Shown here: piece after piece, positions 20,908 to 39,614 of the stretch
Layout: each line of letters begins with the position of its first letter
How positions within the stretch are numbered: the stretch's first letter is position 1
Assembly (NCBI GenBank): GCA_012520575.1
Contig: JAAYOB010000023.1
Coordinates: 62,001-126,000 of the forward strand
Direction of reading: 5' to 3'
From: Candidatus Stramentimicrobium fermentans
GTDB taxonomy: Bacteria > Atribacterota > Phoenicimicrobiia > Phoenicimicrobiales > Stramentimicrobiaceae
Length of the DNA stretch: 64,000 nt
The notes under the pieces: generated by a model
Told to the model about the DNA's origin: nothing
What the model saw: the letters and a program-made list of their open reading frames with translations, nothing else
The model's database searches: none
Position numbers and translations under genes: made by a program

Positions 20908-21918
20908 CTAACAGATTCTGGGAAGTTGCTCACCGCTTAGCATCCCCAGTAGTCTTTTACCGCCGATATCTGTTTTAAGGAATACCTCTGCTCTCCCACT
21001 GGCAATTACCCTGCCGATAATGGTGGCTTGCTCTCCTAATTTATTACCCCTCATCCTCCGTAATGCTTTCTCGGCAAATTGCTCCGGCAGAAAGGCGATT
21101 AATTTGCCCTCATTGGCTAAATAGAGAGGGTCATAGCCCAGAATTTTACAGGTGTCACGGACCATAGTGTCAATAGGTATCTTCTCTTCCAACACCTCTA
21201 TCTCTACTTGAGATGATTGGGCTATCTCGTTTAGGGCAGTGGCGAGCCCGCCTCGTGTGGGATCGCGTAAAACATGAATTTCTTTAGTCACGGATAGCAT
21301 CTCCTGTACCAGCTCCGCCAGCGGGGCGGTATCGCTTATTACATTTTCTTCCAACTGCAGGTTTTCCCGGGAGGCCAGGATGCTGATACCATGATTTCCT
21401 ATCGGACCATTAACGATTATAACGTCATTAACCTGTGCACTACCGGGATGGATATGAACATCATTATCGATAAAGCCTATTCCGGTAGTATTGATAAAGA
21501 TTCCATCAATATCACCTTTGTTGACAACTTTAGTATCTCCGGTAACTATCTCAACACCTGTTCTCCGCGATGCCTCGGCCATACTGCAGGTAATCTGTTC
21601 CAATGTTTGCAAAGTGACCCCCTCTTCAATTAAAAAGGAGACACTGAAATACTTCGGAATAGCCCCGCACATGGCTAAATCATTTACCGTTCCATGTATA
21701 GCAAGATCTCCGATATTTCCACCATTAAAAAAAAGAGGGCTGACTGTATAAGAGTCTGTAGAGAAGGCTATTCTTTTTTTTGTCTGCGGCAATATTGCCC
21801 CATCGTGTAATTGATTCAAAATCGAATTATTAAAATATTTTAAAAATAGGGAACGAATCAGCTGATTGGTTAATTTTCCTCCACTGCCATAGTCCAACGT
21901 AATTATTTGGTCAGTCAT
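20908..21918 (-). CDS. hypE: [NiFe]-hydrogenase maturation protein HypE
   Basis: HypE (336 aa) dehydrates the C-terminal thiocarboxamide to the thiocyanate that supplies cyanide ligands to the Fe centre. The N-terminal LDYGSGGKLTNQLIRSLF, FSTDSYTVSPLFF, NDLAMCGAIPKYFS and TGDTKVV match AIRS-family ATP-binding segments. The C-terminus ends in LPRIC, the conserved terminal Pro-Arg-Ile-Cys needed as the carbamoyl acceptor. It is downstream of hypD by 352 bases, and AMMECR1 follows. Confidence 0.97.
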   Translation of the reverse strand: MTDQIITLDYGSGGKLTNQLIRSLFLKYFNNSILNQLHDGAILPQTKKRIAFSTDSYTVSPLFFNGGNIGDLAIHGTVNDLAMCGAIPKYFSVSFLIEEGVTLQTLEQITCSMAEASRRTGVEIVTGDTKVVNKGDIDGIFINTTGIGFIDNDVHIHPGSAQVNDVIIVNGPIGNHGISILASRENLQLEENVISDTAPLAELVQEMLSVTKEIHVLRDPTRGGLATALNEIAQSSQVEIEVLEEKIPIDTMVRDTCKILGYDPLYLANEGKLIAFLPEQFAEKALRRMRGNKLGEQATIIGRVIASGRAEVFLKTDIGGKRLLGMLSGEQLPRIC

Positions 21919-22270: not shown

Positions 22271-23359
22271 CTAGCCTTTTACTGAGCTATACTTGTAGTA
22301 TGCCGCACAGACTCCCTCACCGGAGACCATACAGGCACCTATCGGATTCCCCGGTGTACAGACTTTCCGGAAAAGTGGACATTGTAAAGGCGTAATTACA
22401 CCTCGCAAGACCTCTCCACACAAGCATTGTTCATTCTCTTTGGTAATCTCCGCTACTACAGAGAAATTCCGGGCATCCCACCCGGAAAATTCAGACCTTA
22501 ATGCCAACCCGCTATCTTTTACCCTTCCCATGCCCCTCCATTCGCTTTCTCTGGGGATAAAGACTTGATTTATCAAGTTGAGAGCTGTCGGATTACCCTC
22601 TTCTCTTACCGCCCTCTTGTACTTGTTTTCTACCCTCGGGTCTTTATTAATGTTCTGCATAATAAGATGATAGATGGCAATTAAAATATCAACAGGTTCA
22701 AAGCCGGCAATGACACAGGCAATCCCATAGCTGTCCGGAATAAACTGATAGGGTTTGCTGCCTATAATGGCACTGACATGTCCCGGACAGAGCATACCAT
22801 CTATTCTCGCCTCATGACTTCCCAAAAGAGCTTTTATGATAGGGGGCATGAGCTTTCCCAGGCTGAGCAGATAAAAATTATTTATATTCTTCTCTTTTGC
22901 CTCCAGCACTACACTGGCCAACAAAGGTACCGTGGTCTCAAAACCAATTCCAACCAGAATAACCTTTTTTCCCGGAAACTCCAGAGCAATATCCAGCGCT
23001 TGGCTGGGAGAATAGATAATCCTTATATCAGCCCCTATTGCCTTTTCTCTTTTCAGACTGGAGGTACTTCCCGGCACATTAATCATATCACCGAAAGTAA
23101 CAATTATAGTATTGTCCATTCGAGATAAAGCTATGATACGGTCAATATCGGAAATGGGGGTAACACATACCGGGCATCCGGGACCGGAAATTAGATGAAT
23201 ATTTTCGGGCAGCAAATCTTTTATTCCGGAACGAAAAATAGATATGGTATGGGTGCCGCAAACTTCCATAAAAGTGAAACTTTCTTCAGTCAAACTACTA
23301 ATTTTAGCTATCAGGGCTTGACAGAGTTCTTTATCGCGGTACTCATCATAATATTTCAA
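22271..23359 (-). CDS. hypD: [NiFe]-hydrogenase maturation protein HypD
   Basis: HypD (362 aa) is the Fe-S scaffold that, with HypC, assembles the Fe(CN)2CO unit. Conserved segments are EVCGTHT, SGPGCPVCVTP, TFGDMINVPGS, GFETTVPL, CPGHVSAIIG, GFEPVDIL, and the C-terminal cluster cysteines in CLCGEVLRGVITPLQCPLF with KVCTPGNPIGACMVSGEGVCAAYY. The start is TTG at 23359, overlapping the hypC stop, with GGAGGAG 8 bases upstream. No family cysteine appears to be missing. Confidence 0.97.
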   Translation of the reverse strand: MKYYDEYRDKELCQALIAKISSLTEESFTFMEVCGTHTISIFRSGIKDLLPENIHLISGPGCPVCVTPISDIDRIIALSRMDNTIIVTFGDMINVPGSTSSLKREKAIGADIRIIYSPSQALDIALEFPGKKVILVGIGFETTVPLLASVVLEAKEKNINNFYLLSLGKLMPPIIKALLGSHEARIDGMLCPGHVSAIIGSKPYQFIPDSYGIACVIAGFEPVDILIAIYHLIMQNINKDPRVENKYKRAVREEGNPTALNLINQVFIPRESEWRGMGRVKDSGLALRSEFSGWDARNFSVVAEITKENEQCLCGEVLRGVITPLQCPLFRKVCTPGNPIGACMVSGEGVCAAYYKYSSVKG

Positions 23360-23571
23360 GATTCAAGCTCCTCCCAGGCTTGTTCTATCTCATTTGCTTG
23401 CTGAAAATCTACTTTAGTAATAGCATATCCGGCATGAACCAGAACATAATCACCATCTTTTACTTCCGGTAAAAGGCTAACTCTAATCAGTTTTTTTACC
23501 TTTCCCAACAAGACTTCTGCCTGCTCATTATCAATTTTTTTTATTATCTTACCCGGTATAGCTAAACACAT
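23356..23571 (-). CDS. hypC: hydrogenase maturation chaperone HypC
   Basis: HypC/HupF (71 aa) carries the Fe(CN)2CO group with HypD. The essential start MCLAIPGKI (Cys2) is intact, followed by the small beta barrel DGDYVLVHAGYAI. It overlaps hypD by 4 bases and follows hypF by 30, indicating translational coupling. Confidence 0.96.
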   Translation of the reverse strand: MCLAIPGKIIKKIDNEQAEVLLGKVKKLIRVSLLPEVKDGDYVLVHAGYAITKVDFQQANEIEQAWEELES

Positions 23572-23601: not shown

Positions 23602-25767
23602 CTATTTACACTCATTGAACGATGACAATATACCCTCCCGCTTTATCTGTGCATCAGCAATAAGTGACTGTCCTAAGGAGATACAGGCATCATTGGGCGG
23701 AAGTGCTTTATGAACCAATACCTTAAAGTGCTCTTTCTTTAATTTTTTGAAAGCTCTCTCCAAGAGAAAACTATTTTGGAAAACACCCCCGCTTAAAGCA
23801 ACATAATTAATATTATAATCTTGTCTTATTCTAACACATAGTGAAAGAATAAAATCAGCCACCGTATTGTGAAACTGGCTGGCGATTTGAGATAAAGGAA
23901 CATTTCTTTCCAAATCTGTAATTATCTGTTGAAACATCTCCAGACTATTCACCACCCAATTATTATCTTCCTTTTCAATGAGATAATGGTAATTTTCTTT
24001 ATAGCTTTCCCGGCACAAAGATTCTAATTCTATGGCCGCTTGTCCTTCAAAATCTACCTCATCCCTTAACCCAATCAATGAGGCAACCGCATCAAATAAT
24101 CTACCGCAACTGGAGGTCATGGGCGAATTAATTCCTCTGTCTATCATCTGCTTAAGCAAAGGCAGATTTTTCACACTTTTTTTGTTTCTGAATAGTCCGG
24201 GAATAGCAGTCAGCTCGGGCCCATAAATAGAATAAAGATAACTGAAGGCCATTCTCCAGGGTTCGTGAATTACCTGTTCCCCTCCGGGCATAGCTATATA
24301 TTTTAAATGGCCCACTCTCTGATAATCTTCCGTTGAGACAATCAGAAACTCTCCGCCCCAGATAGCACCATCCGGTCCATAACCGGTCCCATCAAAGGCT
24401 ATTCCAATGGTCTGTTCAGAAATACGATGTTCAGCTAAGCAGCTCGCGATATGGGCAAAATGGTGCTGAACTTTTATCAGTGGTAATCTATATTTCTCCG
24501 CTAATTGCTCGGCATAACGGGTGGAGAGATAATCGGGGTGTGAATCACAGGCGATTACTTCGGGTTCAAATTTTAAAACCCGGGAGAGGTGTTTGATTGA
24601 CTCCTGATATGCGGTGAAGCTTTCTTTATTCTTTAAATCACCTAAATGTTGACTGGGAAAGGCATAGTTGTCACGGACAAAACATACAGTATTTTTTTCT
24701 TCCGCCCCTAAGGCAAGAACTGACTTCGTTTTTTGAGCCAACATTATCGGATAGGGGGCGTAACCTCGTGACCTCCTGATAAAGATAGGCTGCAATGGAG
24801 TAATTTTTAGGACCGAATCATCACAACGATTATAAATTTCTCTATCATGGATGAGTAGAAAATCTACTTTATCAGCAAATTCCCGAAAGACTTTTTCATC
24901 TTCGATTATTATCGGCTCCTCACTATAATTGGCACTGGTCATAATCAGAACCAGATTACTCTTCTGCAATAAGAAATAATGTAAAGGAGTATATGGAAGC
25001 ATAAAACCTAAATAGGCATTACCCGGTGCAACATTTGGTGATAGGAGACAGGTTTTCTTCTTTTTTAAAAGCAGAATTGGTTTTTCCCGGCTCTCTAAAT
25101 ACTGCTGAGCAATTTTTGAGACAAAACAGAAATTTTTAATGTGGGAAATGCTCTCAGCCATTAGAGCCAAGGGTTTTTGGTCTCTTTTTTTTATCTCTCT
25201 AATCTTTGAAACTGCCCTCTCGTTTTGAGCATCACAGGCAAGATGGAATCCCCCTAACCCTTTAATAACACCAATTTCTCCTTTCCTCAACCTCATTTTA
25301 GCTTCCCGTATAGGGTCAGGTATGTTAATCTGCTCATTTCCCACATAGAGAGCAGCCTGCGGTCCGCAAACCGGGCAGGTATCGGGTTGTACATGGTAAT
25401 GGCGGTTTTTTATATCCCGGTACTCCTGAACGCAATCTTCGCAACTTGAAATATCGGGAGGCATCAAAATCATAGGGTGTTTATATTTAGAATTACTTTC
25501 TTTTATATAAAATTTAGAGTACCAGACAACAGGAAGATTCTCAATCTTAATCTGATTTATAAAGGCTGGAGTAGGTGGATGATTTTTTAATTCAGCCAAA
25601 AATTTCTGATAACCGGACTCTTCCCCTTCCACTTCTATCTCTACCCCTTGATTGGAATTACAAATACAACCATACAAATCATATTTTTTAACCAGTCTAT
25701 GAATAAAGGGGTGGAAGTCCACCCCCTGCGCAATGCCATACAAGATAATCTTTTTTCTTATTTTCAT
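23602..25767 (-). CDS. hypF: carbamoyltransferase HypF, variant with altered acylphosphatase site and one zinc finger
   Basis: HypF (721 aa, versus about 750 in typical members) converts carbamoyl phosphate to the cyanide precursor carried by HypE. Domain order is normal: acylphosphatase-like (about 1-90), zinc region, YrdC-like (about 145-330, with LMTSANYSEEPI), and Kae1-like (about 365-720, with HHFAHIASCLAEH, FDGTGYGPDG, ALSGGVFQN). Two departures are visible. The acylphosphatase loop reads QGVDFHPF, with His19 where the catalytic Arg of GVGFRPF should be (Asn37 is kept). Only one CX2C-X18-CX2C finger (C109-C134) is present instead of two. The remaining finger resembles the usual second one. 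The gene precedes hypC by 30 bases. Confidence 0.93.
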   Translation of the reverse strand: MKIRKKIILYGIAQGVDFHPFIHRLVKKYDLYGCICNSNQGVEIEVEGEESGYQKFLAELKNHPPTPAFINQIKIENLPVVWYSKFYIKESNSKYKHPMILMPPDISSCEDCVQEYRDIKNRHYHVQPDTCPVCGPQAALYVGNEQINIPDPIREAKMRLRKGEIGVIKGLGGFHLACDAQNERAVSKIREIKKRDQKPLALMAESISHIKNFCFVSKIAQQYLESREKPILLLKKKKTCLLSPNVAPGNAYLGFMLPYTPLHYFLLQKSNLVLIMTSANYSEEPIIIEDEKVFREFADKVDFLLIHDREIYNRCDDSVLKITPLQPIFIRRSRGYAPYPIMLAQKTKSVLALGAEEKNTVCFVRDNYAFPSQHLGDLKNKESFTAYQESIKHLSRVLKFEPEVIACDSHPDYLSTRYAEQLAEKYRLPLIKVQHHFAHIASCLAEHRISEQTIGIAFDGTGYGPDGAIWGGEFLIVSTEDYQRVGHLKYIAMPGGEQVIHEPWRMAFSYLYSIYGPELTAIPGLFRNKKSVKNLPLLKQMIDRGINSPMTSSCGRLFDAVASLIGLRDEVDFEGQAAIELESLCRESYKENYHYLIEKEDNNWVVNSLEMFQQIITDLERNVPLSQIASQFHNTVADFILSLCVRIRQDYNINYVALSGGVFQNSFLLERAFKKLKKEHFKVLVHKALPPNDACISLGQSLIADAQIKREGILSSFNECK

Positions 25768-25812: not shown

Positions 25813-26760
25813 TTATTTTTTAACACTAATAAAGTCAAAAAGATCAAGGAACCCTCTTATAATTATACAGGAGATAAAAGCCAATGTTCCTAATTTGCCG
25901 CCGGTGCCTCCAAAATAGGGAATACTCAAAATAAAAAAGAAGGCAGTGAGCAGACCAGCAATAGCAATATATATTTCATTAGGAATTCTATCCCGGGAAG
26001 ACATACCGGCATAGGAAGCACAAATTACCATAACGGCAAGTGTATTGCCAATCTCAGGAAAGAGAGCCGGCATAATCAGCCCTCCCAACAATCCTACAAT
26101 TCCCGAAGAAAGAACTGGTCCGTGTTTTAAACGAACATTGAGAATATAGGTAACTACAGCGGCAACAACAGAATAGAAGACAAAATATTTCTCAATATCC
26201 CATCCCGATATAATTCCTCCGGTGAGAAAGCCTTTTCCGGCAAATACCGATGCCAGAATACAGCCCGTAAGGGCTGAGGCTCCCAATTTACCTCCAAATC
26301 CATTAAATGTATTTTTAGACAGGACAAACACCGCACCGGCTATCATGCCGGCAACCGCAATATGGGTATGGGTTTCAAAAAGAAGGCAGGAGGCCATGCC
26401 TACAATAGAGCCACAGTGCAATGGTACCGCAAACTTAGGAATTATAATGGCTGAGATTGTAGCTACCAGGGCTGAGGCAACCACTGAACCCATGCCCAGA
26501 TGATTATTAAAAATAAAGGTGAGTAATGTCCCAGCCAATATCGCTACGAAATTATAACCATCTGTGCTCCGGAAAGAAAATTCCTTTTCAATTTCTTTTT
26601 TTCTCTCTCCATTTATGCCATAGAGAAGACCAATTAATAAAATCAACTGCAGGGAAACTAACCCGGAAATGCCGTATGCTGCAACATTATCCTTAAGCAC
26701 AACACTGTACAATACCAAGGCTGTAATCGGTAAGACTATGAAACCAATAACCGTAACCAT
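25813..26760 (-). CDS. uncharacterised polytopic membrane protein
   Basis: I do not recognise this 315-aa protein. It is almost entirely hydrophobic, with about ten membrane segments and one longer cytosolic-type loop near residues 50-68 (NGERKKEIEKEFSFRSTDGY). A short motif recurs: FNGFGGKLGASALTG near 152 and FGGTGGKLGTLAFIS near 287, suggesting an internal duplication. HCGSIVGMASC and FETHTHIAVAG carry His/Cys residues within or near the membrane. It lies 45 bases upstream of hypF in the same direction, so it may belong to the hyp transcript. A transport role is guesswork. Confidence 0.7.
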   Translation of the reverse strand: MVTVIGFIVLPITALVLYSVVLKDNVAAYGISGLVSLQLILLIGLLYGINGERKKEIEKEFSFRSTDGYNFVAILAGTLLTFIFNNHLGMGSVVASALVATISAIIIPKFAVPLHCGSIVGMASCLLFETHTHIAVAGMIAGAVFVLSKNTFNGFGGKLGASALTGCILASVFAGKGFLTGGIISGWDIEKYFVFYSVVAAVVTYILNVRLKHGPVLSSGIVGLLGGLIMPALFPEIGNTLAVMVICASYAGMSSRDRIPNEIYIAIAGLLTAFFFILSIPYFGGTGGKLGTLAFISCIIIRGFLDLFDFISVKK

Positions 26761-28928: not shown

Positions 28929-28990
28929 TTTTATTTTTACCAACTCAATTAAAAGTTAATACTCTTAGCAGATTGACAGCCTCTCCAGTT

Positions 28991-29026
28991 AAAAAGGGGT
29001 TATACAGATGAAATAAGTATAACCCC
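28991..29026 (-). terminator. intrinsic terminator after the hnd cluster
   Basis: Minus strand: perfect 10-bp stem GTATAACCCC paired with GGGGTTATAC (28996-29026, 11-base loop), followed by TTTTT. It lies between the gene remnants downstream of hndC and the start of mobA, so it should end the hnd transcript before mobA-fdhD. Confidence 0.75.
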
Positions 29027-29065
29027 CCGCAGAATTTATTTCCTTAACTTCAGGAAACAATACAA

Positions 29066-29140
29066 TTATCCTTCTCTTAAATATGCGTACCGGTATAAAG
29101 TAGCTCCAAAAAAGACCCCGCCAATTATATTTCCAAATAA
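29066..29140 (-). pseudogene. remnant of a formate/nitrite transporter (FNT/FocA) C-terminus
   Basis: Only the last 24 codons and stop of a membrane protein survive. They include GNIIGGVFFGATLYRYAYL, which matches the last transmembrane helix of FNT-family formate channels, where GNIIGG-type motifs and an aromatic-rich ending are typical. Two stop codons (29141-29146) stand immediately upstream in the same frame and no start codon is present. This is a decayed gene end, consistent with a former formate-metabolism locus. Confidence 0.65.
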
Positions 29141-29146
29141 TTATTA

Positions 29147-29301
29147 TGATATCTTCCTAACTTTAACAACACATACTTTGTATTCAGGCATTTTAGAAAT
29201 TAGGTCGGGGCCGCATTGGTCAACACAGGCTAGTTAATGCCTGCCTTTATTGCTGCCTCTAAAATAGTTGTATCAGGTTCTACTATTACCCTTCTTGCCA
29301 T
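29147..29301 (-). pseudogene. remnant of a 2Fe-2S N-terminal domain (FdhA/HydA-like)
   Basis: From the ATG at 29301 the frame reads MARRVIVEPDTTILEAAIK and stops after AGIN. A shift of frame continues with LACVDQCGPDLISKMPEYK and VCVVKVRK before TAA. The pattern of EPxTTILEAAxKAGI, then PDL, then a Cys-Val-Val-Lys-Val strand is that of the N-terminal 2Fe-2S ferredoxin domain of NuoG-like catalytic subunits (formate dehydrogenase alpha, or FeFe hydrogenase HydA/HndD). Usual cluster cysteines are disordered and the rest of the gene is gone. It lies just where hndABC operons usually have the catalytic subunit. The assignment is by eye and moderate. Confidence 0.5.
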
Positions 29302-29429
29302 CAATAGCAGCTTATACCGTTGGTGTGGTATTTGCTTCTCTTTTTGAATCTTTTGTTTTATTCATTCTTGACTTTCTAAAACCTGTAATTTTTGTTATAA
29401 GTTTTGTTCAACAATATTTATGAAAATTA

Positions 29430-31223
29430 TTAATGGCTCTTTATGGCATTAAATCGACAAGCATCGTAGCAAACCCCACATTTTATACAGATATTCTGGT
29501 CTATCTTATGAGGCTTTTTCTTTTCACCGGAAATAGCCTTAACCGGACACTTTATAGCACAAACCGTGCAACCGGTACATTTTTCCGGATTAATTTCAAA
29601 TTTTAATAGCGATTTACATACTCCTGCTCGGCATTTTTTATCCCTGATATGTTCGATGTACTCATCTCTAAAATATCTAAGGGTGGTTAGAATGGGATTG
29701 GGAGCAGTCTGTCCTAAGGCACAAAGAGAAGTGTCCTGTATGCGAACAGCTAATTCTTCTAAAACATCTAAGTCTTCCATTTTACCCTTCCCCTGACAAA
29801 TTTTAGTTAACATATCCAGCATAATCCTGGTACCTTCTCTACAGGGGGTACACTTACCACAGGATTCATCTTGAATAAAATTCATGAAATAGCGAGCAAT
29901 ATCGACCATGCAGGTATCTTCATCCATTACTACCAATCCACCCGAACCCATAATGGCCCCGAGCTCCTTTAATGATTCATAATCAATTCTTGCATCGAGA
30001 TGTTCTTCGGGAATACAGCCTCCTGATGGTCCCCCAATCTGCACTGCTCTTAATTTCTTATTGTTAGGGATTCCACCGCCAATATTGTAGACAATTTCTC
30101 TTAAAGTTATTCCTATGGGCACTTCAATAAGCCCCGTATTAGTAACATCTCCGGCAAGAGCAAATACCTTAGTCCCTTTGCTTTTTTCAGTTCCCATTGA
30201 AGCAAAATTTTCAGCTCCATGCAGAATTATGTATGGAATATTTGCTAATGTTTCCACATTATTTAAAACAGTTGGCAATCCAAACAAACCTTTATTGGCA
30301 GGGAAAGGTGGTCTGGGGCGAGGCTCTCCCCTTTTTCCCTCAATAGAGTGAATCAAAGCAGTCTCTTCGCCGCAAACAAATGCACCAGCACCTATTCTAA
30401 TTTCTACATCAAAATCAAAACCGGTATTTAATATATTCTTTCCTAATAGCTCATATTTTCTCATTTCGGCAATAGCAATCTCTAGCCTCTTAATTGCTAG
30501 GGGATATTCGGCACGGACATAGATATAGCCCTGATTGGCGCCAATAGCGTATCCTGCAATCATCATAGCCTCTAATACACTATAGGAGTCACCTTCTAGC
30601 ATACTGCGGTCCATAAAGGCACCCGGGTCACCCTCATCAGCATTACACAAAACATATTTTTGTTTACCGGGGGCTTTGGCAGCAAATTCCCATTTCAGTC
30701 CAGTGGGAAATCCGGCTCCCCCTCTACCTCTTAATCCTGATTTCTTTATCTCTTCAATCACCTCTTGTGGAGTCATCTCAGTCAAAACCTTCCCCAGTGC
30801 TACAAAGCCATCAGCCCCTATATAGTCATCTATCGCATTAACATCAATTATCCCACAATTTCTTCTTGCAATTGTCTTTTGCAGTTTAAAGAAATCAATT
30901 TCTTCCATAATAGATATTAATTCTCCCGTGTCCGGTTTTTTGTAAAAAAGGCGCTGTACAACTCTTCCTTTCAGAAGATGTTCTTGTACAATTTCCCGGG
31001 TGTCCTCCGGTGTAACCCGTTGGTAAAAAACCCCATCAGGATAAACAACCATTACAGGACCAAGTTCGCATATTCCCATACAACCTGTAGTAATTATTTC
31101 GACTTCTTTGTCCAATTTAGCTTCTTTTAGTGCCGCTTTAAATGCTTTTACCACTTCTACTGCACCATTTGACACACAAGAAGTGCCCTGGCAAATAAGA
31201 AGCTGGGTTCTTATATTATTCAT
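29430..31223 (-). CDS. hndC: NuoF-like NAD(P)H-binding flavoprotein subunit (HndC/HydB type)
   Basis: A 597-aa diaphorase subunit that moves electrons between NAD(P)H, FMN and Fe-S clusters. Domains in order: N-terminal thioredoxin-like 2Fe-2S (about 5-95, CQGTSCVSNG and TTGCMGICELGP), NADH/FMN domain (GLRGRGGAGFPTGLKWEF, NADEGDPGAFMDRS), SLBB, a 4Fe-4S motif ESCGKCTPCREGT, then two C-terminal ferredoxin clusters CTGCTVCAIKCP and CIKCGVCYDAC. All cluster cysteines look intact. The catalytic subunit gene expected next is reduced to a remnant, so the partner must be encoded elsewhere or is lost. Confidence 0.93.
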   Translation of the reverse strand: MNNIRTQLLICQGTSCVSNGAVEVVKAFKAALKEAKLDKEVEIITTGCMGICELGPVMVVYPDGVFYQRVTPEDTREIVQEHLLKGRVVQRLFYKKPDTGELISIMEEIDFFKLQKTIARRNCGIIDVNAIDDYIGADGFVALGKVLTEMTPQEVIEEIKKSGLRGRGGAGFPTGLKWEFAAKAPGKQKYVLCNADEGDPGAFMDRSMLEGDSYSVLEAMMIAGYAIGANQGYIYVRAEYPLAIKRLEIAIAEMRKYELLGKNILNTGFDFDVEIRIGAGAFVCGEETALIHSIEGKRGEPRPRPPFPANKGLFGLPTVLNNVETLANIPYIILHGAENFASMGTEKSKGTKVFALAGDVTNTGLIEVPIGITLREIVYNIGGGIPNNKKLRAVQIGGPSGGCIPEEHLDARIDYESLKELGAIMGSGGLVVMDEDTCMVDIARYFMNFIQDESCGKCTPCREGTRIMLDMLTKICQGKGKMEDLDVLEELAVRIQDTSLCALGQTAPNPILTTLRYFRDEYIEHIRDKKCRAGVCKSLLKFEINPEKCTGCTVCAIKCPVKAISGEKKKPHKIDQNICIKCGVCYDACRFNAIKSH

Positions 31224-31245
31224 AATTCAGATACTCCTTATTATA

Positions 31246-31743
31246 CTATTTATACTGTTCTAAAATTGCATCCAACATATTCGTGGTCAACCTGCCATGC
31301 ACATGATTGTCAATCATAATTACAGGCGCCATACCGCATGAGCCAAAACAGGGCTGACAACCTAAGGTAAACCTCATATCTTCCGTAGTTTCCCCTTCTT
31401 TGATGCCCAGTTTCTTTTCTAGTTCGTCCAATATTTTCTGGGCTCCTCTTACATAACAGGCCGTCCCCATACAAACAGTTATCGTGTGCCTGCCTATAGG
31501 ATTTGTTTTAAAATAAGAATAGAATGTTGCTACCCCAAATACTTCGCTCTCAGATAAATTCATTTCTTGCGCAATAAATTCCATAACCTCCGGAGGCAAG
31601 TATTTGAATAATTCTTGCGCTTTATATAAAGCAGGGATTAAGTAACCCCTTTTATCCTTGTTTTCCACAATAAATTTTTTTAATTGGTCGTACTTTTCCC
31701 GTGAGGGAGATGCTTTGGGTTCTACAATAGTCATTTTACTCAT
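31246..31743 (-). CDS. hndA: NuoE-like 2Fe-2S subunit (HndA/HydC type)
   Basis: A 165-aa NuoE-family subunit with a helical N-terminus (about 15-75) and a thioredoxin-fold 2Fe-2S domain. Cluster ligands are visible as CMGTACYVRG (C-x4-C) and CQPCFGSCGMAP (the CxxxC pair plus one extra Cys). It overlaps hndB by a few bases (ATGAG junction) and precedes hndC by 22, a tightly coupled set. In family members it relays electrons between NADH:FMN and the catalytic subunit. Confidence 0.93.
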   Translation of the reverse strand: MSKMTIVEPKASPSREKYDQLKKFIVENKDKRGYLIPALYKAQELFKYLPPEVMEFIAQEMNLSESEVFGVATFYSYFKTNPIGRHTITVCMGTACYVRGAQKILDELEKKLGIKEGETTEDMRFTLGCQPCFGSCGMAPVIMIDNHVHGRLTTNMLDAILEQYK

Positions 31744-32110
31744 TAGTTTTTCCTCTTTGAAATATATATTGTTCTACTACCTTGTTATTTAAAACATGTT
31801 CATCAAAAATAAGTCTAGCAGCTTCCACATCAACATTGTGATAAGTTACGGGAATTTGGTCTTCTGCATAGATATGTACCATGGGTTCCTGAACACAAAA
31901 ACCAAAACATCCTGAGGCAGTAACCACGATGTCATTTCTTTCACTCTTTAGGATCAAATTCAAGAACTCGTTCATTGTCTCTCTTGCTCCGGCAGCTATT
32001 CCACAGGTACCCATTCCAATAACAATTTTGATATTGTGCTTCCCCGATCTGAGTGCCAAATCTTTCTGCGCTTTGTCCCGCATAATCTTTAGTTCTTCTA
32101 GGTTTTTCAT
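31736..32110 (-). CDS. hndB: (2Fe-2S) thioredoxin-like ferredoxin, HndB type
   Basis: A 124-aa protein matching HndB, the second small Fe-S subunit of NADP-reducing/bifurcating hydrogenases. IVIGMGTCGIAAGARET and TASGCFGFCVQEPMV supply the CxnC...CxxxC ligands of a thioredoxin-like 2Fe-2S cluster, although the first half shows one Cys (GTC) rather than two. It overlaps hndA and lies 56 bases past the HATPase gene. Confidence 0.88.
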   Translation of the reverse strand: MKNLEELKIMRDKAQKDLALRSGKHNIKIVIGMGTCGIAAGARETMNEFLNLILKSERNDIVVTASGCFGFCVQEPMVHIYAEDQIPVTYHNVDVEAARLIFDEHVLNNKVVEQYIFQRGKTNE

Positions 32111-32166
32111 AAAAACTCCTCTCCAAATGTTACATTTATATTAAAATATGCCGATATCTGTTTGTA

Positions 32167-32703
32167 TTAAACAACATTTATGCTCTTCAACTCTTTTTTA
32201 GTAGTCTCATAAATATGCTTTCTTATCTGCAGATAATCTTTCGAACCTTCTTCTATCTCCTTTTGCAACCCTGAAAAGTCTAAAATCAAATGTTCTCTTC
32301 CCTCTTTTATTATAAAAATCTTCAGTCCGATATCAGGCCTAGACAGGAAGATGTCAGAGAAAGTCATAGCTAAATCTCCAAACGGTTTAGCATCAATATG
32401 GGAGGTATTTATTTTGAATTCCAGTTCAGTTCCTCCTGCCTCATCTTTTCTTCTTATTTTTAAATATCCTCCAGTGTCTTCTGCTGCCCTTTCTAACAAA
32501 GGTAGACCTAGCCCGATTCTCCTGGTTTTCCGGGTAGTTACAAAAGGATCCAGCACTTCCTGTCCGGTAATTCCTCTCCCATTATCAGAGATGCTGCAGA
32601 AAAAATGATTTTTATCATAAGCTATTTTTAATACAACTTCATTAGCTTCTGCATTAAAAGAATTTTCTAAAATATCGAAAATGTGGTCAGCTATATCCTT
32701 CAA
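32167..32703 (-). CDS. HATPase-domain protein of the hnd operon
   Basis: A 178-aa GHKL ATPase-like protein with N-box ILENSFNAEANEV, SDNGRGI and GLGLPLLERAAEDTGGYL. There is no histidine-kinase dimerisation region, so it resembles the stand-alone anti-sigma/ATPase proteins that accompany NuoEF-type hydrogenase operons. The frame is open further upstream (TTG at 32793), but TTG at 32703 is preferred: AGGAAGG lies 6 bases before it and homology begins there (KDIADHIFDILENS). The C-terminal 60 residues are family-specific. The role is probably regulatory; the partner is unknown. Confidence 0.75.
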   Translation of the reverse strand: MKDIADHIFDILENSFNAEANEVVLKIAYDKNHFFCSISDNGRGITGQEVLDPFVTTRKTRRIGLGLPLLERAAEDTGGYLKIRRKDEAGGTELEFKINTSHIDAKPFGDLAMTFSDIFLSRPDIGLKIFIIKEGREHLILDFSGLQKEIEEGSKDYLQIRKHIYETTKKELKSINVV

Positions 32704-32832
32704 TTTCGGCCTTCCTGAGAAAATTATGCAATGAATTAAAATCTTCTCTATCTGTATATTTTCTTGCACATCCCCCAAAATGGGCCAGGCCAACTAACTC
32801 ATTCATACTTTCCTATGAAGCATTTTGCCTTA

Positions 32833-33020
32833 TTAACCATACTCTCCTTCTTTAAGTCGATTGAGTAAAATAGAATGGACTACCGCATTATGGTCAGTAA
32901 TAGCAATCAGGTTTAGCCCACTCTGTTCTGCTTTTTTGGTATCCTTTGTGGTGACATTATATTTTCCCCACAAGCTGAAAGAGAAGAATGGATGTGCAAA
33001 TCAAGCTTGATTTTTATCAT
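32833..33020 (-). pseudogene. PHP-domain protein, frameshifted and truncated
   Basis: It starts at an ATG inside the end of the DRTGG gene and opens MIKIKLDLHIHSSLSACGEN, the HxH metal motif of PHP phosphoesterases. At a run of six A residues (T run at 32932-32937 on the plus strand) the frame breaks. One base more would restore it and continue with KKAEQSGLNLIAITDHNAVV, including the conserved TDHN. The gene then ends after about 60 codons where relatives have some 200. It is a pseudogene, or a real frameshift plus truncation; PHP proteins are usual neighbours of hnd/hyd genes. Confidence 0.8.
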
Positions 33021-33345
33021 CCTCTAATAATTTATAAATCATTCCACATAATTGAAATGAATTTTTATCGCTACTATACAAATTAATTCCTTCTTCTTTG
33101 GCTTTATCAGTCAATTCTTGATCAACAACAACATCATTACTAAAAACAATTGCTCGAATACCTTTGATTAGCGCAACAGCGATACTGTTTTTGTGAGCTT
33201 GAACGGTTATCCAGATACTTTCACTTTCGGCGTGCCCAATAACATCTGACATTAAGTCTCCACAATAACCTGCTTTAATCTCGTCATTGGAGCAGAAAAC
33301 TATTTCATTCAGATTACAACTCTGCACAATCTGACTTAGCTTCAT
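33001..33345 (-). CDS. DRTGG-domain protein
   Basis: A 114-aa protein resembling the stand-alone DRTGG-domain proteins found in FeFe-hydrogenase and hnd operons (LSQIVQSCNLNEIVFCSND, GYCGDLMSDVIGHA, ALIKGIRAIVFSND, KNSFQLCGMIYKLL). The family is thought to be regulatory or ligand-binding; nothing more specific is known. Its last codons overlap the start of the PHP pseudogene. It appears intact although the genes on both sides are broken. Confidence 0.78.
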   Translation of the reverse strand: MKLSQIVQSCNLNEIVFCSNDEIKAGYCGDLMSDVIGHAESESIWITVQAHKNSIAVALIKGIRAIVFSNDVVVDQELTDKAKEEGINLYSSDKNSFQLCGMIYKLLEDDKNQA

Positions 33346-33428
33346 CTTGAATCCTCCAAATAAACTATTGCTTTTAATACAGTACCTGTCTTTATAGAAG
33401 ATTCCCGTCTAATTTGTCAGCACGTTTT

Positions 33429-34180
33429 TTAGATTAGGCAACTCATTCCGGCACCAAATCCTAATACTCCAATCTGCTCAGAAGCTGCGGCAAAACCGGA
33501 TTTCAAAACCTTTTCTATATCATGAATACCTGGACTATAATCTACAGCAGCAATGATTATCCTATCTTACTCCACCTGTGAGATTGTATACCTTCCCAGA
33601 GAATGTGTACTGATATTTATATCAGCTCCGTAATAGATTATCGACGCTCTTTTTAGAATCTGTTTTTATCAATATTTAATTTTTGTAAATACTTTGCTTA
33701 TAACACTAGCAGGTCTACCAACATTATCGAAATCAGCCTTTCCTGCTTCAAATCGTAGTGGTTTTTGCTGAAATCGCCCATGGTAAGTATTTCAACTATT
33801 TTTGGGGAATGTGTATTTTCTGTTACGGGTAACTGCCCGTATTTATATTTTTCAAATTTTTTAATGGCAGAAACAGGAGAATGGTTCTGAGGGATAGCTA
33901 TGACATCTTTAGACATATAGTCTTTTATTTTCTCGGTAATATAGTTTTCGTCCAGAGTGGTTATTGCATCATCTAGACTAATGATGCCAATTACTTTTTT
34001 TGCTTCATATAAGATAGGCGTACCAGGCATTCTATTCTTCTTTAATGATTGTTGAATTTCACGAAAGGTGACGTCTTCACTAAGAAAAATGACTTTTCTG
34101 GTCATGGCATTTTCTATTTTTAATTGATAGATGAGCTCATGGGCTAAGGTCAATTTTTCTCCGGACTGTAAAATATTCAT
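33429..34180 (-). pseudogene. CBS-domain plus anti-sigma HATPase protein, degraded
   Basis: The first 160 codons (34180-33698) are open and encode two CBS repeats (IENAMTRKVIFLSEDVTF; IKDYMSKDVIAIPQNHSP). After a stop, homology to the RsbW-like HATPase half continues in pieces: KYLQKLNIDKN, then in another frame ILKRASIIYYGADINIS, an in-frame stop near 33570, and GVLGFGAGM just before a final stop at 33429. Intact relatives read through into DNGPGIPD and GFGAGMGLPNI. At least one frameshift, two internal stops and a missing C-terminus mark it as a pseudogene, although the CBS part could still be translated. Confidence 0.85.
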
Positions 34181-36210: not shown

Positions 36211-36657
36211 ATGTCTAAAAATTTTCTTTTAGGAATAGGTAATTCTTTACGGACCGATGATGGTGCCGGCTCTTTTGTTGCTCAACATTTCCAGCACCAT
36301 AACTGGAGAGTTATAGATGGTCAGACAGCCCCAGAAAACTATGCCTCAGTAATAAAAAAATTCCGTCCAGACCTTTTGATAATTATCGATGCTGTGGAAA
36401 TGAACCTTAGAGCAGGTACTATAAGGCTAATTCCTTTAGAAAAAATTGCTTCTTTCCAATTTTCCACTCATTATTTGCCTTTATCCTATTTGGTGGAATA
36501 TGTGGCTCCTTATTGCTCAAATATAATACTAATAGGCATACAACCATTATCTACTGAATTGGGTGAAAATTTAAGTGAACCTGTACTAAAAGCATGTTAT
36601 CTGCTTATTGACCTATTGCAAGATAACAGACTAAGCTCCATTCCAATTTTAACCTGA
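36211..36657 (+). CDS. HycI-type hydrogenase maturation endopeptidase
   Basis: A 148-aa aspartic-type maturation protease of the HyaD/HycI family, which removes the C-terminal extension of the NiFe large subunit once nickel is inserted. LGIGNSLRTDDGAGSFVAQH (first metal ligand Asp16 or 17), LLIIIDAVEM (Asp60) and FSTHYLPLSYL (His87) give the nickel-sensing residues. STH-LPLS is the pattern of the group-4 (HycI) branch, fitting the mbh large subunit at 38.4-39.6 kb with its cleavable 32-residue tail. It is the only plus-strand protein gene in the window, convergent with the mbh operon. The ATG at 36211 lacks an obvious ribosome binding site. Confidence 0.9.
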   Translation: MSKNFLLGIGNSLRTDDGAGSFVAQHFQHHNWRVIDGQTAPENYASVIKKFRPDLLIIIDAVEMNLRAGTIRLIPLEKIASFQFSTHYLPLSYLVEYVAPYCSNIILIGIQPLSTELGENLSEPVLKACYLLIDLLQDNRLSSIPILT

Positions 36658-37386: not shown

Positions 37387-38394
37387 TTATATCAGATAGT
37401 CAACTGCCATAAACAATAAACCGATTAGCCCTATTACCGATAAAAAGATTAAATAGGCCGAGGAGGCTTGATCTATCTTCAATCGTGCCAAAGCAACACG
37501 GATAAAGGTTACTTCAAAGAATAGAACCACAAATAATTTAACAAAAAAGAATAGTATGTCCATAATATAGGCCGGGAATCCGCTTAAAGAGAGTAATGGT
37601 GATATATTATAAGGAAAAAATAACACTATAGTCAGGGTTCCCATTACCACCATTTTAACCGCATTGGTCAGTTCAAATAAAGCCAAGTTACGACCGGAAT
37701 ACTCCACCAGGACACCACCGGCTAATTCCGTTTCCGCCTCAGGTGTATCGAAAGGTACAACGGATAACTCAGCCGGAGTAACTATAACCAAGGTAAATAG
37801 CAATAGTATGGCACCTAAGAAACCGAGTGGGCCAACTATGCCCCAGATAGGATTAGTGCTGAACGATGCTAGTGAAAAGACTTTTAGTCCGGGAAAGGCT
37901 AGATTCAGGCGCCAGCCTAAAACAATAACGGTGGTCACTAAGGGTAGCTCATAACTCATCAACAGGACCATCTCTCTTTGTGCTCCGATGCTGGCATAAG
38001 AAGAGCCAGAGGAAAACCCTCCTGTCACCAGAGCAACGGCAGGCATAGCAAGTAAATAGACAATCAGTATTAAATCACCGGAATTGGCAAACAGTGCCGG
38101 TATAGGACCAAATGGGAGATAGAATAAAATGGTTATTGTAGATACTAATGCCAGAACCGGTGCACCGTTAAAAATCCAGGGAACTGCATTTTTAGGAACA
38201 ATATTCTCTTTGATCATCAGCTTAAAAAAGTCCAAAAAAGGCTGTCTGATAGGAGGCCCTACACGAGATTGCAACAAGGCTGCCAATTTACGGTCAATAC
38301 CTTTATAAAACAGCCCTATTATTACCCCTAATACTGCAATTAGCAACGTACCTAAGATTTTTAAAATAAAAATAAAGATACTGCTTACGCTCAT
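37387..38394 (-). CDS. mbhM: membrane-bound hydrogenase membrane anchor subunit (MbhM, NuoH-like)
   Basis: A 335-aa NuoH/HycD family integral membrane protein with about eight helices. Conserved loops are YKGIDRKLAALLQSRVGPP near residue 30 (the KxxAxxQxRxGP pattern), GSSYASIGAQREMVLLMSYE, and PFDTPEAETELAGGVLVEYSG with its Glu-rich quinone-loop equivalent. It links the hydrogenase module to the antiporter module. It overlaps mbhL by 4 bases. Confidence 0.95.
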   Translation of the reverse strand: MSVSSIFIFILKILGTLLIAVLGVIIGLFYKGIDRKLAALLQSRVGPPIRQPFLDFFKLMIKENIVPKNAVPWIFNGAPVLALVSTITILFYLPFGPIPALFANSGDLILIVYLLAMPAVALVTGGFSSGSSYASIGAQREMVLLMSYELPLVTTVIVLGWRLNLAFPGLKVFSLASFSTNPIWGIVGPLGFLGAILLLFTLVIVTPAELSVVPFDTPEAETELAGGVLVEYSGRNLALFELTNAVKMVVMGTLTIVLFFPYNISPLLSLSGFPAYIMDILFFFVKLFVVLFFEVTFIRVALARLKIDQASSAYLIFLSVIGLIGLLFMAVDYLI

Positions 38395-39614
38395 TTCATC
38401 ATCCTCCTGGTTTTAGCAATACTCAATTTTATTAAATCTTCCCTGGTAAGCACCTGTTGTTGATTGGTCTTGGATTCTACCAGTGTTACCCTATCCATGC
38501 AACCTATGCAGGGGTCAATAGATGCTGTGACAATAGGGATATCGGCTATTTCTTGGCCCTGCAGCATGGGTATCCAGGACATCAGATTGTTATATGTTGG
38601 GGCTCTCGCTCTCCAAACTTCCGGATTCTCTGATTCATTTAATTTTATATAATGGATGGCTTCACCGCGAGGAGCTTCATGTCTGCCCACTCCTTCACCC
38701 TTTGCTTTTTTTAAAACAGCAAGCAGTTTCGCCAGTTTAGGCTCTGAAACAATATCCCCCTCAGGCAAGTTATCTAAACAGTATTCGATAATCTCTACTG
38801 ATTGAGCAACTTCCAATATTCTAACTATAATACGGTCAAAAACATCTCCTTTAACTTCGCCGGTGAAGAAATCCGGTGTTATAGCTTTGATATCCATATC
38901 GGCATAGGCAGAATAAGGTTGGTCCTGTCTGATATCTTTTTTGATTCCCGACGCTCTTGCAGTAGGTCCCACGCTGGCTAAATGTAAAGCCTGCTCATAA
39001 GTCAAAATACCCACATTCTTAGTTCTTATGGCAATACTGGGGTCTTTTAGAAAGACATTTTCTAAAGTCTGATAAGTCTCTTTATAATAATCCAGAGTCT
39101 TTCTGATACGAGGTAAGTGCTCTTCGGTAATATCTCTTCTAACCCCTCCAATCATAAACATGCCATAGTTAATCCGGTTACCGGTAAGCAATTCCAGGAG
39201 GTCCAGCACCTCTTCCCGTACTTTCCAGGAAAGGTATAATACTGAATTAAATCCTAACTCCTCTGCAGCTATTCCGGCCCACAATATATGGGACTGTATT
39301 CTTTCTAATTCAGCAATGATAACTCTGATATATTCCGCCCTGGGCGGCACTTCAATGCCGGCGGCATTTTCTACGGCACGGCAAAAGGCATAGGGATGTG
39401 AGGCAGAACATATACCGCATATTCGCTCAGCCAGATAAATTATCTGGATAATGTTCCTATTTCTGCCCATAAATTCGATGCCTCGATGATTATCGCCGGG
39501 GACCAGGTCAACCCTTTCAATTCTTTCACCGGTTATCTCAAAATTGAAGGTCATCGGTTCCGCCAATGAGGGATGAATGGGACCAATAGGTATTTTATAG
39601 GTAGTTTTACTCAA
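38391..39614 (-). CDS. mbhL: membrane-bound [NiFe] hydrogenase large subunit (MbhL)
   Basis: A 407-aa group 4 NiFe large subunit. Both nickel-binding motifs are present: L1 ERICGICSASH (C66, C69) and L2 DPCIGCMDR (C369, C372), so it is a true hydrogenase rather than a NuoD-type subunit. After Arg375 a 32-residue tail remains, the expected substrate of the HycI-type protease at 36211. It reduces protons with electrons from MbhJ. Both flanking genes are within 12 bases. Confidence 0.97.
   Translation of the reverse strand: MSKTTYKIPIGPIHPSLAEPMTFNFEITGERIERVDLVPGDNHRGIEFMGRNRNIIQIIYLAERICGICSASHPYAFCRAVENAAGIEVPPRAEYIRVIIAELERIQSHILWAGIAAEELGFNSVLYLSWKVREEVLDLLELLTGNRINYGMFMIGGVRRDITEEHLPRIRKTLDYYKETYQTLENVFLKDPSIAIRTKNVGILTYEQALHLASVGPTARASGIKKDIRQDQPYSAYADMDIKAITPDFFTGEVKGDVFDRIIVRILEVAQSVEIIEYCLDNLPEGDIVSEPKLAKLLAVLKKAKGEGVGRHEAPRGEAIHYIKLNESENPEVWRARAPTYNNLMSWIPMLQGQEIADIPIVTASIDPCIGCMDRVTLVESKTNQQQVLTREDLIKLSIAKTRRMMK

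Follow-up and report, generated by a model that had tools for sequence, protein, structure and literature searches.

A single-copy HypF with degenerate acylphosphatase and zinc-finger domains and a conserved YrdC-Kae1 half in Candidatus Stramentimicrobium fermentans

The only hypF gene found in the genome of Candidatus Stramentimicrobium fermentans, a sediment-type bacterium, encodes a protein that appears to be undergoing reduction to its YrdC-Kae1 half. The gene lies in a window of 64,000 nucleotides of contig JAAYOB010000023.1, the whole stretch of DNA analyzed here, to which all coordinates refer unless stated otherwise. HypF is required to assemble the metal centre of the hydrogen-producing hydrogenase and is described as a three-site enzyme, in which carbamate is freed from carbamoyl phosphate (CP) and channelled within the protein. 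In the variant described here, the phosphate-binding residues Arg19 and Gly17 are replaced, and the two-finger zinc domain that would seat the acylphosphatase site appears to have collapsed through an in-register deletion of 150 bp. We tentatively favor, at slightly less than an even chance, the explanation that the YrdC-Kae1 half keeps this HypF working and that carbamate, which would no longer need to be released from CP within HypF, is produced elsewhere; both the continued function and the carbamate source are what we infer.

The hypF open reading frame occupies positions 23602-25767 of the reverse strand and encodes 721 aa, and its translation is open over the whole length. The protein scores 680 bits against the NCBIfam equivalog model TIGR00143 (cut-off 466), which identifies it as a HypF, and Pfam recognizes an acylphosphatase domain, a single zf-HYPF match, Sua5_yciO_yrdC and both HypF_C domains. 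The acylphosphatase domain (ACP; residues 1-95, 25483-25767) is followed by the zinc region, the YrdC-like domain (residues 146-340, 24748-25332), which is conserved at the canonical rate, and the conserved Kae1-like domain (residues 341-721, 23605-24747), all on the reverse strand. A second, canonical hypF, named in an earlier sequence-only reading of this DNA as the observation that would overturn its interpretation, was sought in the genome, which is 98% complete, and was not found: there is one zf-HYPF locus and one HypF. Hereafter, the genome carrying the window is denoted G000, and G001, G002, G003 and G004 are other members of the same genus. Adjoining hypF, positions 25813-26760 of the reverse strand encode a 315-aa membrane-type protein without a Pfam match, which among the relatives compared has an orthologue only in G003 (61% identity).

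The phosphate-binding loop, GIAQGVDFHPF (25705-25737, reverse strand), contains GVDFHPF in place of the usual GVGFRPF. The replacement of Arg by His at residue 19 (codon CAC, 25713-25711), already noticed in the sequence-only reading, is confirmed by translation and by alignment of HypFs, and is accompanied by a change which that reading had missed, G17D (codon GAC, 25719-25717); both substitutions sit in the phosphate-binding cradle. All other aligned HypFs covering the loop carry GVGFR (once GVGYR), two N-terminally incomplete proteins (L058 and L063) having been left out of this comparison. In acylphosphatases, the Arg binds the substrate and the Asn is catalytic (PMC13044899). The catalytic Asn37 and the overall acylphosphatase fold are retained in the HypF of G000, and three further residues, at sites conserved in 7/7 family members, are changed (W34C, L67P and G82W), all of these substitutions, like those in the loop, being non-conservative. 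With Arg19 and Gly17 gone and the zinc domain collapsed, acylphosphatase activity is probably lost or very low. The earlier interpretation had left a choice between a dispensable acylphosphatase step and a different mechanism employing the His. Because other conserved acylphosphatase sites are changed too, we consider it more probable that the acylphosphatase and finger half as a whole has degenerated selectively than that the His takes over; dispensability is the better reading of the two, short of proof.

Canonical relatives possess two CX2C-X18-CX2C modules, in register and 50 residues apart, whereas the HypF of G000 has one, CEDC-X18-CPVC (25366-25443, reverse strand). Exactly 50 residues (150 bp, one finger period) are absent between CxxC-1 and the region before CxxC-4, which accounts for the shorter protein as had been proposed. 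The count of one module was likewise correct, but the survivor is not an intact finger: its first pair, CEDC, is CxxC-1 of finger 1 in the finger-1 context DISSCEDC, and its second is CxxC-4 of finger 2 in the finger-2 context YHVQPDTCPVCGP. Plain loss of finger 2 was rejected, because in the alignment fingers 1 and 2 are fused in register. The tandem repeats have thus been joined into a chimera by an in-register deletion from one to the other, with the junction of the in-frame deletion placed, relative to relatives, approximately at 25420-25434 of the reverse strand. In an AF2 model of this HypF built from 28 sequences, the mean pLDDT is 89 and residues 119-134 fall below 50, whereas a canonical control from the same sequence set has no residue below 50; the low finger pLDDT is weak evidence because the alignment is awkward around the deletion. 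Elsewhere, the last finger motif in the HypFs of two Theionarchaea (L061 and L064) is CPQE rather than CxxC, with one zinc ligand lost. A regular expression flagged these proteins as single-finger HypFs, an assignment that was rejected because their alignment contains two fingers with one Cys lost.

Within the phylum, the finger change of G000 stands out. HypF is present in 21/50 genomes of the phylum, and two fingers were found in all 18 other complete copies, the HypFs of G019 and G023 being incomplete at contig ends and outside this set. At least two finger matches were found in 93/93 HypF-bearing genomes of a second phylum. The HypFs of G001, G002 and G003, from the same genus, are canonical. 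Judged by its sequence, the HypF of G000 is an atypical HypF by descent, a variant of a known enzyme seen in one genome and not a canonical member.

The damage is unevenly distributed along the protein. At near-invariant positions, taken as those with 92% or more conservation across 27 distant HypFs, the protein is changed at 7/32 in the acylphosphatase and finger part and at 3/78 in the YrdC and Kae1 part (Fisher p = 0.006), and beyond these 7 changes a further 17 conserved finger positions are deleted. The same test reveals no excess in any of 17 canonical relatives (p 0.48-1). Measured against seven sequences from its own family, the protein is changed at 7/34 positions in the acylphosphatase domain, 4/23 in the finger, 8/99 in YrdC and 8/155 in Kae1, that is, 11/57 against 16/254 for the two halves. 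The YrdC and Kae1 domains, described as intact in the sequence-only reading, are so by Pfam and by retention of 75/78 near-invariant positions, and the YrdC branch length in G000 is typical. Whole-gene pseudogenization was rejected, given the conserved C-terminal half and the open frame. Neutral drift of the acylphosphatase domain is not supported by dN/dS: in the G000-G002 comparison, dS is saturated and dN is ordinary (0.165 for the acylphosphatase domain, 0.151 for YrdC and 0.186 for Kae1). Since its overall dN is not raised, the acylphosphatase domain is not drifting freely. An excess of branch length in the N-terminal half was also rejected as proof of decay, being non-specific, as the canonical HypF of G003 is fast in this half too (N/C ratio 2.43 vs 1.83). 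Taken at the level of sequence, the decay singles out sites that are conserved and functional, and there is no free drift; a degenerate front half combined with a conserved back half suggests that the carbamate-freeing first step can be skipped.

Directly downstream of hypF, on the same strand, lie hypC (23356-23571), with its N-terminal MC motif (Cys2) intact, full-length hypD (22271-23359) and hypE (20908-21918), whose C-terminal PRIC, containing the carbamoyl acceptor cysteine, is intact. The claim that the Mbh hydrogenase is intact holds for the large subunit of this Mbh-type [NiFe] enzyme (38391-39614, reverse strand), which possesses both Ni-binding CxxC motifs (RICGIC and DPCIGC) and the C-terminal extension. 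The Mbh open reading frames that were compared have lengths close to those in G003, a full-length HycI-type hydrogenase maturation protease is encoded at 36211-36657 of the forward strand, and HypA is encoded elsewhere in the genome. The rates of HypE and HypD in G000 are normal (0.96 and 0.97), and the branch lengths of its Mbh genes are somewhat raised (1.1-1.7).

Between hypF and mbh, an [FeFe]-hydrogenase cluster (28950-34180, reverse strand) is decayed in G000, where its genes are true pseudogenes, and intact in G001 and G002. Of hydA, which encodes 924 aa in G001, a remnant persists near 29200-29300; HydB has 597 aa vs 1009 in relatives, the GltD-like C-terminal half of the latter being absent; most of the PHP gene (about 32845-33110) is deleted and the rest is out of frame; and the second half of the CBS/ATPase gene (33357-34180) is interrupted by a frameshift and five stops. 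In the same genus, the genome of G004 (1.1 Mb, 90% complete) encodes the Mbh large subunit and HypA, and neither hypD nor hypF was detected in it at this completeness, which possibly reflects a parallel loss or else incompleteness of the assembly.

The supply of CP in this organism bears on what HypF would have to do. A search for CarB yielded no match above the cut-off in G000 or its genus, and carbamate kinase is the only CP source found in G000. The kinase gene is directly followed by that of aspartate transcarbamylase (ATCase) (L116:8781-10723, in G000 contig C45), and the same pair occurs in several relatives. Pyrimidine synthesis probably relies on the kinase in the role of carbamoyl-phosphate synthetase; its presence led us to reject the absence of any CP source as the cause of the HypF changes. 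Carbamate kinase needs high ammonia to make CP (PMC6022934). Because CP is made, on present evidence, only from carbamate by this kinase, its hydrolysis back to carbamate inside HypF would be futile. Ornithine transcarbamylase (OTC) is absent from G000 and present in 4/4 other members of the genus; an OTCace match in G000 was rejected as an ornithine transcarbamylase and represents the aspartate enzyme. With a single genome, the loss of OTC and the altered HypF amount to one coincidence, and G001-G003 also combine carbamate kinase and ATCase with no CarB, yet retain the canonical loop. Carbamate kinase could not stand in for the OTC route when T. kodakarensis had to make pyrimidines (PMC13260591). 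A separate acylphosphatase with the canonical Arg is encoded in G000.

Under the favored explanation, carbamate could come from the cell's own pool of ammonia and bicarbonate, on which carbamate kinase would also draw, from CP that breaks down in the YrdC site in the manner of TobZ-type carbamoyltransferases, or from the separate acylphosphatase with the canonical Arg, acting in trans. In principle, the YrdC-Kae1 half would be chemically sufficient, since TobZ-type enzymes make carbamoyl-AMP with just these domains. A more specific proposal, that the [NiFe] cyanide ligands arise directly from free carbamate (ammonia and CO2) through the YrdC-Kae1 half, in an acylphosphatase-independent manner permitted by the kinase-only supply of CP, appears doubtful to us. 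The main rival is an early stage of hypF loss, in which the lineage sheds hydrogen metabolism and HypF has recently become inactive, Mbh and hypCDE having not yet decayed. The wreckage of hydA, hydB and the PHP and CBS/ATPase genes nearby makes a future loss of hypF plausible too, and G000, with 1.58 Mb vs 2.0-2.3 Mb, is small for its genus, G004 apart; the gene content of G004 and the somewhat raised Mbh branch lengths point the same way. Against early loss, the lesions are gathered in one half instead of ranging over the gene, and the C-terminal half is as well conserved as that of canonical relatives; the genes for HypD, HypE and the large subunit show no damage, HypE and HypD evolve at normal rates, and a decayed neighbour carries 5 stops in 140 codons while hypF has none, and no frameshift, in 721. 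That hypF stays open among decaying neighbours argues for selection on it, and we regard early loss as possible, if on the unlikely side.

The protein could also be an ordinary HypF, in which the Asp17/His19 loop together with Asn37 would sustain sufficient acylphosphatase activity, and in which the chimeric module, with a single zinc bound, would keep the domain in place. Retention of Asn37 and of the overall fold, the ordinary dN of the domain and the complete-module spacing of the retained CxxC pairs are consistent with this, and His might plausibly serve as a phosphate ligand, albeit a weak one. The substituted Arg is nevertheless the substrate-binding residue (PMC13044899), found in every other aligned HypF that fully covers the loop, a carboxylate in place of Gly17 would lie within the cradle for the phosphate, the conserved residues W34, L67 and G82 have also been replaced, and the chimeric finger is modelled at low confidence, so that ordinary function seems distinctly unlikely. 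A sequencing or assembly error, or a mixture of strains, at the loop and finger region is highly improbable. The sequence is known from one assembly of this species, the two loop changes would each come from a single G-to-A transition, in a GGC and a CGC codon, and the deletion has the length of the repeat period; on the other hand, the finger repeats of relatives have only about 50% DNA identity to each other, too low for collapse by an assembler, the deletion is in frame and the frame open throughout, the changes are not of the homopolymer type, and the excess changes are spread over many separate sites of the same half.

If the HypF of G000 functions with a degenerate first site beside an intact hydrogenase operon, the first step could be uncoupled, as O-carbamoyltransferases suggest. 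The protein thus offers a direct test of whether a textbook step is dispensable, and of whether carbamate itself can serve as the source of cyanide ligands. Should hypF be on its way out, the locus would be a snapshot of a lineage dismantling its hydrogenases, with the [FeFe] cluster going first.

Among known systems, the closest is canonical HypF, the carbamoyl:HypE ligase, a class II carbamoyltransferase (PDB 3vth, 3vti, 4g9i, 3tsp). The HypF of G000 resembles it in family (TIGR00143 over the cut-off), in the operon with hypC, hypD and hypE, in its intact YrdC and Kae1 domains and in predicted fold, with a TM-score of 0.87 by query length between the model and 3vth; it differs in the replaced loop Arg and Gly and in having one chimeric zinc module instead of two. 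A precedent for natural HypFs that dispense with the acylphosphatase step is provided by HypF1 of Cupriavidus necator and other short HypFs. HypF1 is assumed to depend on an activated carbamoyl compound that is supplied to it (PMC9100943). When tested anaerobically in E. coli, this truncated protein was inactive (PMC5350229, PMC9100943), which tells against the explanation favored here. HypF1-like proteins consisting of the Kae1-like half only were also observed inside the hyp operon of an Acidovorax plasmid (L165:3004-4185) and in Cupriavidus taiwanensis (match H40). Unlike C. necator HypF1, which has only the C-terminal domain, the HypF of G000 keeps four recognizable domains, the first two degenerate. 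HypF1 was inactive anaerobically, whereas the present organism, in which a search found no other HypF, is expected to live as an anaerobe. The way in which the remaining half would work is best illustrated by O-carbamoyltransferases of the TobZ/GdmN type (class III), which have no acylphosphatase domain and need no more than YrdC-like and Kae1-like domains to convert CP and ATP into carbamoyl-AMP and to transfer the carbamoyl group (PMC6022934, PMC9633730). These enzymes belong to a different family, modify small-molecule hydroxyl acceptors without HypE and have the reversed domain order, Kae1-like N-terminal to YrdC-like, whereas the HypF of G000 has YrdC followed by Kae1.
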